A program made the position numbers and the translations under genes. The notes below the pieces were generated by a model. That model did no database searches. It saw only the letters and a list, made by a program, of their open reading frames with translations, and was not told the origin of the DNA. DNA of 64,000 nt. Source: Verrucomicrobium sp. BvORR034 (GTDB lineage: Bacteria; Verrucomicrobiota; Verrucomicrobiia; Verrucomicrobiales; Verrucomicrobiaceae). The stretch spans positions 1 through 64,000 of the forward strand of contig NZ_BATQ01000001.1 in assembly GCF_000739635.1 (NCBI RefSeq), given 5' to 3'. Position 1 is the stretch's first letter. Each line of letters begins with the position of its first letter. Positions 51,699 through 55,116 of this stretch are shown here, one piece after another.

Positions 51699-53168
51699 CT
51701 ACACCTTCTGCAGCCCCTCCAGCACCGACTTGACCTCGCTCCACGCCACTTCATGCGGGGCGCGTTTCGTCCGGGCCGCCACGGCAGCCGTGGCTCCCGC
51801 CGCTTCCCCCATGGCAACGGAGTTCCCCGTGACGCGGTAGCTCGCGTGGGCCGTGAAGTCGCCGCTGATGCAGCGGCCCGCCATGAGCAGGCCGTCCACG
51901 TCTTTCGCGATCAAAGCCCGCAAGGGGATGTCGTAGGGGTGGAACTTGAAGTCGGCGTGAATGATGGCCTTTTTGTCATTTGCCTCCTTGTCATGAGCGT
52001 GGATGTCCACGCCAAACGTGGCCTGGGTCACGGCATCATCATGTCGTGCACCTGTGGCCAGGTCGTCGCGGTTCACGGTATAACGGCCATGGATGCGCCG
52101 GCCATCGCGCACGCCGATCTGTTCTGGCGTGGCTACGATCTGCATACCCTCCCAGGGTCCACCGAGCTTGCGCAGGCCACGCACGACGTTGAACACCTCC
52201 GCACGGGCGCGGATGGTGGCCTCAGTGATCGCCGGAGCGTCAAAGGCCTTGATGCCATATTCGTGATTGATCATCACCATCACGAGGTTGTCCCGCACTT
52301 GGAAGAGCGTGGGCATGCCGTAGGAGGGTTTGAATCCGGCCCGGATGATTTCATTCTTGAAGCCCTCTGTGGCCTGGTGGTGCCAGTCCCACATGCTCTT
52401 GCGGTTCTCCGGGGTGACCTGGTAAAAGGAAATATAGTTCTTGAGCGCCTCCGCATCCTTCACCACGGCCAGGGTGTTCAGCGTCATGGGCTGGCAGGGA
52501 CATTCCGCCCCACCTTGACCAATATCCCAGCCACAACGGGCCATGGCACCGAGGTCACCATCTCCCGTGGCATCAATAAAGACCGGGGCACGCCAGGCCT
52601 GACGACCCGACTTCGACTCCGTGATTACCGTGGTGAGCTTGCGACCATCCCGATAAGCGGCAGCGAGGCGGGTGTGCAGGTGAATCTTCACACCTGCCTC
52701 CACGCACATCTCTTCCAACAACACCTTCATCTCCTCCGGTTCATACACAAACTGGTCCGGCAGCTTGCTGCGGCGGGCATCCCGCTCGTCCAGTCGACGG
52801 ATGATCTCCTGGGCGAGGCCGGGTTTGTTGAAGTCGAAGATGTAGGTCAGCAGCCCCGCAGTCCACACCCCGCCCAGGCAACCGTGAATCTCGATGAGGC
52901 GGGTCTTCGCCCCCGCCCGCGCCGCGGCCAATGCGGCAGCGATCCCGGCTGGCCCGGCCCCGCAGACGATGACATCCACGTCCTCACCTAGCGGCAGATC
53001 TTGCGCAGGCTCCGCAAAGACGCCCGTCTTCAACTGCGCCACCTCTGGAGTGGACGCCGCCTCGAGCCAGGGTCCCGAGGCCAGCGTAGCCGCCCCGGTC
53101 AGAGCGGAGCGCAAAAAGGTGCGGCGGCCATTTTCAGGGCGGTGAGGGGAAGAGGTGGATTCGGACAT
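51699..53168 (-). CDS. Tat-exported FAD-dependent oxidoreductase
   Basis: 489 residues from the ATG at 53168. A twin-arginine signal (NGRRTFLRSALTGAATLASG) directs export after folding with FAD. The dinucleotide-binding motif is VIVCGAGPAGIAAALAAARAG, followed by TRLIEIHGCLGG. Conserved C-terminal segments include GRCISGDFTAHASYRVTGNS. This PF12831-like family is common in Verrucomicrobia and Planctomycetes and its substrates are mostly unknown. It is divergent from the BlaI-type gene across 150 bp that hold the operator cluster, so its own transcription may also fall under that repressor. Confidence 0.9.
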   Translation of the reverse strand: MSESTSSPHRPENGRRTFLRSALTGAATLASGPWLEAASTPEVAQLKTGVFAEPAQDLPLGEDVDVIVCGAGPAGIAAALAAARAGAKTRLIEIHGCLGGVWTAGLLTYIFDFNKPGLAQEIIRRLDERDARRSKLPDQFVYEPEEMKVLLEEMCVEAGVKIHLHTRLAAAYRDGRKLTTVITESKSGRQAWRAPVFIDATGDGDLGAMARCGWDIGQGGAECPCQPMTLNTLAVVKDAEALKNYISFYQVTPENRKSMWDWHHQATEGFKNEIIRAGFKPSYGMPTLFQVRDNLVMVMINHEYGIKAFDAPAITEATIRARAEVFNVVRGLRKLGGPWEGMQIVATPEQIGVRDGRRIHGRYTVNRDDLATGARHDDAVTQATFGVDIHAHDKEANDKKAIIHADFKFHPYDIPLRALIAKDVDGLLMAGRCISGDFTAHASYRVTGNSVAMGEAAGATAAVAARTKRAPHEVAWSEVKSVLEGLQKV

Positions 53169-53257
53169 GGCAGAAGCAGTGAGAAGGGCGAACGCTGGTT
53201 TGTTCCCTAGAGTCCCCGATCCCGCCATGTTGGACAAATCGGTGCGATCGAGCACGC

Positions 53258-53318
53258 TGCTAAATTTTTAGCATTTAGCACTCGACAGTTGCACGTGACG
53301 AGTGCTAAAAAATTAGCA
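53258..53318 (+). promoter_or_regulatory. operator cluster with CIRCE-like half sites upstream of the BlaI-type gene
   Basis: Three overlapping symmetric elements precede the repressor start. Near-palindromes tgctaaatttttagca (53258-53273) and tgctaaaaaattagca (53303-53318) flank an inverted repeat with arms ttagcactc (53275-53283) and gagtgctaa (53300-53308). The outermost matched bases extend to tttagcactcg / cgagtgctaaa. The half sites equal those of CIRCE, but the spacer is 16 rather than 9 bp. The second palindrome overlaps the ATG. Autorepression by the BlaI-type protein is the simplest reading. Confidence 0.8.
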
Positions 53319-53719
53319 TGAAGCGGAAATTGCATGAGCTCAGCCGACGCGAGCGGCAAATCATGGAACTCATATTGGTCAAAGGCTCCGCCTCTGCAGC
53401 CGAAGTGGAGGCAGGGATTCCCGATGCACCAAGCTACTCCGCCATCCGCGCCCTGCTGCGCATTCTAGAGGAGAAGGGCCATCTCAAGCACCGGGAGGAA
53501 GGGGGACGTTATGTGTACGAACCGATCGAGGCCCCGCAAACGGCGAGTCGGTCGGCCCTCCAACAGGTGGTGAAGACATTCTTCGGCGGCTCGTTGGCCG
53601 ATGCGGTTGCCGCGTTCGTCGATGACAAGGACGGCAACCTCTCCAGCGATGAGTTGAAACGGCTGGAGGACATCATCAAAAAGGCAGGAAAGCCGGGCTC
53701 TGAGCCCCGGGCGTCTTGA
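53318..53719 (+). CDS. BlaI/MecI-type transcriptional repressor
   Basis: 133-residue penicillinase-repressor family protein. Residues 1-75 form the winged helix: LSRRERQIMELILVKGS, AAEVEAGIPDAPSYSAIRAL and LRILEEKGHLKHREEGGRYV. The rest is a dimerisation and cleavage segment ending in a short acidic to basic tail; BlaI relatives are inactivated by cleavage at the C-terminal helix. The ATG overlaps a palindrome, fitting autorepression. The M56 peptidase gene begins just after it, the classic repressor-sensor pair. No beta-lactamase lies in the window. Confidence 0.93.
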   Translation: MKRKLHELSRRERQIMELILVKGSASAAEVEAGIPDAPSYSAIRALLRILEEKGHLKHREEGGRYVYEPIEAPQTASRSALQQVVKTFFGGSLADAVAAFVDDKDGNLSSDELKRLEDIIKKAGKPGSEPRAS

Positions 53720-53763
53720 GATCAACATCCTTTCACATCGGACTCACATCCCAAAACAGCGCC

Positions 53764-55116
53764 ATGAATGCCATCACCCCCCTCATGATTGACCTTGGGC
53801 TGCGCAGCAGCGCCATTCTGATTGTCGTCTTTGCTTTGCTCGCTGTCTTTCGCCGTGCCTCCGCAGGCGCGCGCAGTGCCGCCTGGCGCGTGGGATTCCT
53901 GCTGCTGTCCCTGCTGCCCCTGACTTATTACTTCGAACCCCCGTGGTGTCTGACCGTGGCCGAAATGGCTCCGCCTCCGTCTCGAGAACGGTCGATCTTC
54001 AACGCACCGGAGGAGCTGGACCCGGCGAACAGCATCTATGGCGGGCGTTCCATGATGGAGTCCCTGGAAGAAACCAGCCCGGGAATCACGTGGATCGTCA
54101 TCTGGATGGCAGGTGCCGGGGTCTTGCTGATGCGCCGTTTCATCTCCAGGCGGCAGTTGAGGAAGCTGGCGAGGCAAACCATGCATCTCACGCCCAAGTC
54201 ACGGCAAGGACGCTTGTGCAAGCAACTGGCCACCTCACTGGGCATCTCACGTCGTGTCCGCCTGCGCCATGGTCCCACCTTGGCCGTGCCCGTCACCTGG
54301 GGCATTCGCAGACCCGTGATTGCGCTGCCGACGGCCTCGTCCGACTGGGATGAGGTTCGGCTTGAGGCCGCCCTGCTGCACGAACTGGGGCACATCCGAA
54401 ACCGCGATGCCTTTTCCCGTCTCCTCGCCACAGCGGTGCAGGCATTCTACTGGCCCAATCCTCTGGTATGGATCGCCGCCAGGGCCTGGCGGACCGCCCA
54501 GGAACAGGCCTGTGATGATCACGTTCTCCTCAAAGGCACCCCAGCCGACACCTATGCCCACCAACTGGTGGAAGCCGCACGCAGCCTGGCCGTGGCACGT
54601 CAGCGCCTGGGCACAGCGCTGGCCATGGCACGCCCTTCCACTCTGGAGCAACGCATCACCGCCATCCTAAATCCCCGGGTGAACCACCAGCCCGTGAGCC
54701 GCAGCACCTGGTTCAAGATCTCCACAGCGGGAGTTCTGTGCCTGATCCTCCTGACCATGGTGCAGATTCGCGGACTCGCGGCACCCGCGGAAGACTCCAG
54801 CAAAGGCAATCCCACAGAAATACAAGATCTGGCTGAACGCACGGTGCTCCCCGAGCTGAAACTCCGCATGGCCTCCCTGGAGGAAGCGGTCGCCGCCATA
54901 CGCCTCAAGATCGTCGAGGCATCACCGGAGAAGAGGCCGCTTAAGATAACGGTGACGCACCTGTCCGTGCGCGACAGACAAGCCAAGATGTCGGTAGATT
55001 TCATACAAATTCCCCTGCATGAAGCACTAAACTACATCACCCAACTGGCAGGGGTAAAGTTCCGCTACGTGGACAACGAGGTGCTGATTGAAGGGAACGA
55101 ACCTGCCAGCGATTGA
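53764..55116 (+). CDS. M56 (BlaR1-type) membrane peptidase with C-terminal STN-like domain
   Basis: 450 residues from the ATG at 53764; an in-frame TTG at 53716 overlaps the repressor stop. Membrane helices lie near 12-28, 41-58 and 108-123, with a final one at 319-333. The zinc motif is LLHELGHIRNRD (206-217), and the third ligand is likely Glu247 in AQEQACDDHVL. In BlaR1 the C-terminus is a penicillin-binding sensor. Here instead residues about 362-443 form a short STN/secretin-N-like unit (IPLHEALNYITQLAGVKFR, then YVDNEVLIEG). The stimulus is therefore probably not a beta-lactam. It likely cleaves the adjacent repressor; this is inferred from family and position. Confidence 0.88.
   Translation: MNAITPLMIDLGLRSSAILIVVFALLAVFRRASAGARSAAWRVGFLLLSLLPLTYYFEPPWCLTVAEMAPPPSRERSIFNAPEELDPANSIYGGRSMMESLEETSPGITWIVIWMAGAGVLLMRRFISRRQLRKLARQTMHLTPKSRQGRLCKQLATSLGISRRVRLRHGPTLAVPVTWGIRRPVIALPTASSDWDEVRLEAALLHELGHIRNRDAFSRLLATAVQAFYWPNPLVWIAARAWRTAQEQACDDHVLLKGTPADTYAHQLVEAARSLAVARQRLGTALAMARPSTLEQRITAILNPRVNHQPVSRSTWFKISTAGVLCLILLTMVQIRGLAAPAEDSSKGNPTEIQDLAERTVLPELKLRMASLEEAVAAIRLKIVEASPEKRPLKITVTHLSVRDRQAKMSVDFIQIPLHEALNYITQLAGVKFRYVDNEVLIEGNEPASD

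Follow-up and report, generated by a model that had tools for sequence, protein, structure and literature searches.

Probable twin operator of an autoregulated blaI–M56 operon in Verrucomicrobium sp. BvORR034, with CIRCE-like arms confined to one lineage

Which regulator reads the three nested palindromes that stand before a blaI-type gene in Verrucomicrobium sp. BvORR034, when the middle one carries the half sites of CIRCE, the operator of HrcA? The window, by which we mean the whole stretch of 64,000 nucleotides that was analysed, holds all three palindromes where the original prediction had placed them, and the lower TGCTAA palindrome does touch the start codon, as it had also stated, since 53318, where it stops, is the first letter of the blaI ATG. 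The features on which the argument draws are as follows.

51699-53255, minus strand: divergent FAD-dependent oxidoreductase gene, with a leader (RRTFLRSALTG) resembling a Tat signal
53258..53273, no strand assigned: upper operator (op1, probable), dyad TGCTAA-N4-TTAGCA, letters TGCTAAATTTTTAGCA
53274..53309, no strand assigned: CIRCE-like middle inverted repeat, lineage-specific, present in this genome and G002 only
53282..53287, plus strand: probable -35 element TCGACA, at a column where orthologues of other genera keep TTG
53303..53318, no strand assigned: lower operator (op2, probable), dyad TGCTAA-N4-TTAGCA, letters TGCTAAAAAATTAGCA
53306..53311, plus strand: probable -10 element TAAAAA inside op2, proposed from sequence and conservation
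53318..53719, plus strand: blaI-type repressor gene, 133 aa (PF03965, 85 bits against a cut-off of 22.6)
53716..55116, plus strand: M56 (BlaR1-type) metalloprotease gene (PF05569, 111 bits; HELGH motif), start codon uncertain

The blaI product is an ordinary BlaI/MecI-type repressor whose AlphaFold model has their winged-helix fold, the top 12 PDB matches all being MecI or BlaI (E 5e-8 to 6e-6), and the M56 gene adjoins it as in other BlaI–M56 pairs, its reading frame overlapping the blaI stop. PF05569 is the sole family above its cut-off in the M56 protein, and a Pfam search at E values up to 5 returned M56 only, apart from a weak M48 match; the penicillin-binding sensor domain that characterises a BlaI–BlaR1 beta-lactam system was not among the results, so that, to judge from the domain content, beta-lactams need not be the signal for this protein. 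In place of such a sensor, the end of the protein (361-458) shows a weak similarity to the N-domain part of the Amuc_1098 type IV pilus secretin family (E 3.5e-6, well short of the family cut-off). The divergent oxidoreductase gene probably begins later than its listed start, the ATG at 53169 being the likelier one.

Two dyads stand at the repressor's own promoter, the arrangement of a BlaI-family twin operator. At one mismatch or fewer, op1 and op2 are the sole matches to TGCTAA-N4-TTAGCA in the 8.58-Mb genome (a backward control gave 4 matches per strand), and at two mismatches or fewer the genome contains 58 matches versus 137 in the backward control, which is no excess. We therefore ruled out a wider regulon in this genome, there being no third site at the first threshold and no excess at the second, and with no further operator at hand the main target of the pair seems to be the operon that encodes it. 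The operator core is TAAANNTTTA, kept as such in the orthologues; the TACA/TGTA-type core of mec, bla and cop operators, TACANNTGTA, was looked for at op1 and op2 and is not present in either.

An exact-dyad search of 57 genomes (Verrucomicrobium sp. BvORR034 and relatives) found the dyads in 10, the very genomes that carry an orthologue of blaI, plus one isolated match. The original prediction had expected TGCTAA dyads in relatives, and they precede orthologous blaI genes in nine of them, which together with this genome make up six genera and repressors 62-100% identical. In every one of the ten orthologues op1 and op2 are separated by exactly 45 bp and the lower dyad has the A of the start codon as its final letter, while the four central dyad bases and the spacer vary; nine carry two exact copies, and G013 has a second copy that has diverged to TGCTAGAAAACCAGCA, still 45 bp away. 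The surroundings of the dyads also bear on the possibility that they mainly control the divergent oxidoreductase gene, with blaI encoding the regulator of a neighbour. That gene is indeed divergent from blaI within the genus, but other genera have a different neighbour there while the operator stays, and the dyads hold their distance to the blaI ATG, which makes this explanation very improbable. Since the neighbour on that side of blaI is not conserved, control of the divergent gene by the dyads was rejected; the M56 gene is conserved. In one locus (L017, in G014) blaI and the M56 gene are separated by an extra 333-aa open frame, which lies about 407-1408 bases from where blaI begins.

Lack of conservation in close relatives was the outcome on which the original prediction had staked its palindromes, and here the outer two hold up while the middle one fails. 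The middle repeat reads TTTAGCACTCG(ACA)..(TGA)CGAGTGCTAAA, and inside it TTAGCACTC and GAGTGCTAA are exact nine-base CIRCE half sites separated by 16 bp, letter for letter as predicted; with any spacer of 5-25, these arms occur a single time in the genome. Perfect inverted repeats with arms of at least 11 bp and spacers of 3-30 number three in the 64-kb window and zero in two mononucleotide shuffles, so the middle repeat is uncommon but not singular in the window. The TTTAGCA of the op1 right half (53267-53273) is directly repeated at 53274-53280, the start of the left middle arm, and the right middle arm overlaps the left half of op2; the CIRCE-like arms are therefore partly built from operator halves. 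In this lineage the arms extend beyond the half-sites by CTCG/CGAG, possibly by chance. They are limited to this genome and G002 (BlaI 99% identical): in G003, of the same genus (BlaI 95% identical), the spacer is tttccatctagacagccgagagcttcgga, without CIRCE-like arms, and no orthologue from another genus has them.

Could the site nevertheless serve HrcA as a variant CIRCE, alone or together with BlaI, and so couple the operon to heat shock? The exact nine-base arms, TTAGCACTC and GAGTGCTAA, are what the locus shares with the HrcA operator, but it differs in having N16 where CIRCE has N9, in not standing before a chaperone gene and in its lack of conservation, the arms being lost in the third genome of the genus. 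HrcA itself (PF01628) was found in 0 of the 53 genomes of the order that were searched, this one and 52 relatives, by a search that matched 7 of 14 control genomes, and this genome has no CIRCE with N9 at up to three mismatches. The proposed check on HrcA and an N9 CIRCE in this genome thus returned neither, and taken together with the loss of the arms in G003 these results led us to reject the CIRCE/HrcA identity, to which we give next to no credence. The idea of HrcA as a second regulator of the site falls with the absence of the protein, and the idea that the BlaI-type protein reads an HrcA-like sequence falls with the absence of the arms from G003 and from the orthologues of every other genus. 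From the sequences compared, the CIRCE resemblance is best described as an accident of one lineage, owed to extra half-site-like sequence between its two operators. This removes a misleading link of the locus to heat shock, and as no HrcA was found in the 53 genomes of the order, these must control heat shock by other means.

The same extra sequence could act as a third, lineage-specific BlaI operator, or as additional half-sites that make repression tighter in this species and in the one closest to it. The middle repeat does contain the half-site TTTAGCA/TGCTAAA, and this genome (G000) and G002 have identical arms around an 8-base loop that differs at two positions; yet a pair of changes in the loop does not suffice to demonstrate selection on the arms, neither G003 nor any of the remaining orthologues has the repeat, and its halves lie 29 bp apart with the outer edge included in op2, a layout different from that of the N4 dyads. 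We consider such a role unlikely.

The site is, in our assessment, very probably the twin operator of an autoregulated blaI–M56 operon, as the outer dyads recur at a fixed place before blaI orthologues and the CIRCE arms do not; the outer palindromes are most likely two copies of a docking site by which the BlaI-type repressor switches off its own gene. Points that count against this reading are the half-site, which departs from the classic TACA/TGTA, and a consensus promoter scan of the site, which called no promoter, with neither a -35 nor a -10 element. In the assignment given above, TAAAAA is preceded by TGC and separated from TCGACA by 18 bp, which would have transcription begin approximately at the first letter of the start codon and yield a leaderless mRNA. 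A dimer of the repressor would bind each 16-bp dyad, with op2 covering the probable -10 region, the transcription start and the start codon, and op1 sitting immediately before the probable -35 element; joint occupation of both would shut off the promoter. By analogy with BlaR1, which cleaves BlaI in S. aureus (PMC9834060), the membrane M56 protease, once activated by its signal, would release the promoter by cleaving the repressor.

Twin dyads are also found at other BlaI-family genes. This genome has eight such genes, and among the paralogues of blaI paired dyads with other half-sites precede the ATG: TGTTGA (L009), RGCTGA (L006) and ACTACA (L003). Among about 70 BlaI-family genes of relatives, most have twin 16-bp dyads, mostly 39-45 bp apart, and a minority showed none by the same search; the scores of these twin dyads were never reached in 30 dinucleotide shuffles per gene. 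A separate group of paralogues (L094, L095, L085, L038 and similar) combines a helix YSAVRALLG with TGCAGA-N4-TCTGCA twin dyads, which are placed about 40-64 bp before the predicted ATG and not at it.

These varied half-sites can be compared with the recognition helix, which spans residues 40-52 in the AlphaFold model of the blaI product. The predicted helix corresponds to MecI helix alpha3, reported as Ser41-Asn56 (PMC5341023); the invariant R44 aligns with MecI R46, S41 matches K43 and A45 matches T47. Across 52 non-redundant genes with a twin operator and 116 protein columns, after removal of overall protein distance, the half-site difference was tracked best by columns 41, 48, 40, 45 and 47 (r from 0.52 to 0.28), all inside the recognition helix; the median over all 116 columns was about 0, and 0 of 500 permutations reached as high.

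A rule linking the helix.YSxxRA..R with TGCTAA came from the first gene set, and we put it to the test on loci retrieved afterwards from Verrucomicrobiota, Planctomycetota, Acidobacteriota, Gemmatimonadota, Rhodothermales, Fimbriimonadaceae, Aminicenantes and others. Scoring a dyad as present when at least 11 of its 12 positions matched in the roughly 220 bp upstream, we found TGCTAA dyads before 12 of 17 held-out genes with this helix and 1 of 15 without it, the exact helix pattern having been fixed after a first look at these loci. Among 400 random half-sites, none did better than 1 of 17 on the same loci, and TGCTAA ranked first among its 180 letter permutations; at L121 and L122 the helix is present and the TGCTAA dyad absent. 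Many of these genes are probably orthologues, so the held-out result speaks for conservation no less than for a code. When co-changes of helix residues and operator bases were counted on a tree, with few events and little power, the helix was not singled out, though two co-changes occurred twice each: K45 together with G at half-site position 4, and S45 together with G at position 5.

The covariation of half-site and recognition helix lends indirect support to binding of the twin operator by the adjacent repressor. Whether helix residues 40, 41, 45 and 48 set the half-site of twin 16-bp operators in Verrucomicrobiota and several other phyla is a proposal on which we are evenly divided; under such a code, for example, YS..RA..R would read TGCTAA, YS..RS would read TGYTGA, MAVRR would read CGTTAA and K45 would go with GAA. 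If it is true, the code would let several paralogous BlaI–M56 pairs coexist in one cell without crosstalk. BlaI–M56 pairs are numerous in these bacteria; with an operator readable from the recognition helix, one could predict their regulons from sequence, and natural repressor–operator pairs would be at hand for testing specificity. In the literature searched, with subscription journals thinly covered, we found neither the TGCTAA operator class, nor its place over the start codon, nor the helix–operator correlation, nor anything on this operator type in Verrucomicrobiota or Planctomycetota.

Other elements of the arrangement are already known, namely twin operators and non-TACA half-sites of BlaI proteins and the 16-bp dyads of CopY. 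The Staphylococcus MecI/BlaI operator (consensus RNATTACAWNTGTARKNT; PMC5341023) resembles the locus in that a repressor of family PF03965 reads a dyad, an M56 gene lies alongside, and the A/T-rich core has the same register, but the core here is TAAA/TTTA with GC outside (TGCTAAANNTTTAGCA), not TACA/TGTA, and the locus is without a beta-lactamase or PBP gene and has an M56 partner without a penicillin-binding domain. The CopY/CopR operator, RNYKACANNYGTMRNY, is likewise a 16-bp dyad (PMC7253601), often in two copies before the repressor's own operon, whereas our locus has other core letters and a protease as partner. In Clostridium thermocellum, BlaI_0696 and BlaI_1845 have two inverted-repeat pairs upstream with half-sites GTCTAT and GACTAT, and tiny autoregulatory regulons that include BlaR1 genes (PMC8457756). 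The locus in Verrucomicrobium sp. BvORR034 shares with them the twin repeats, the non-TACA half-sites and what appears to be a very small autoregulatory regulon with its M56 gene, and differs in its half-site and phylum, in the fixed 45 bp between its dyads and in a lower operator that ends on the start codon.
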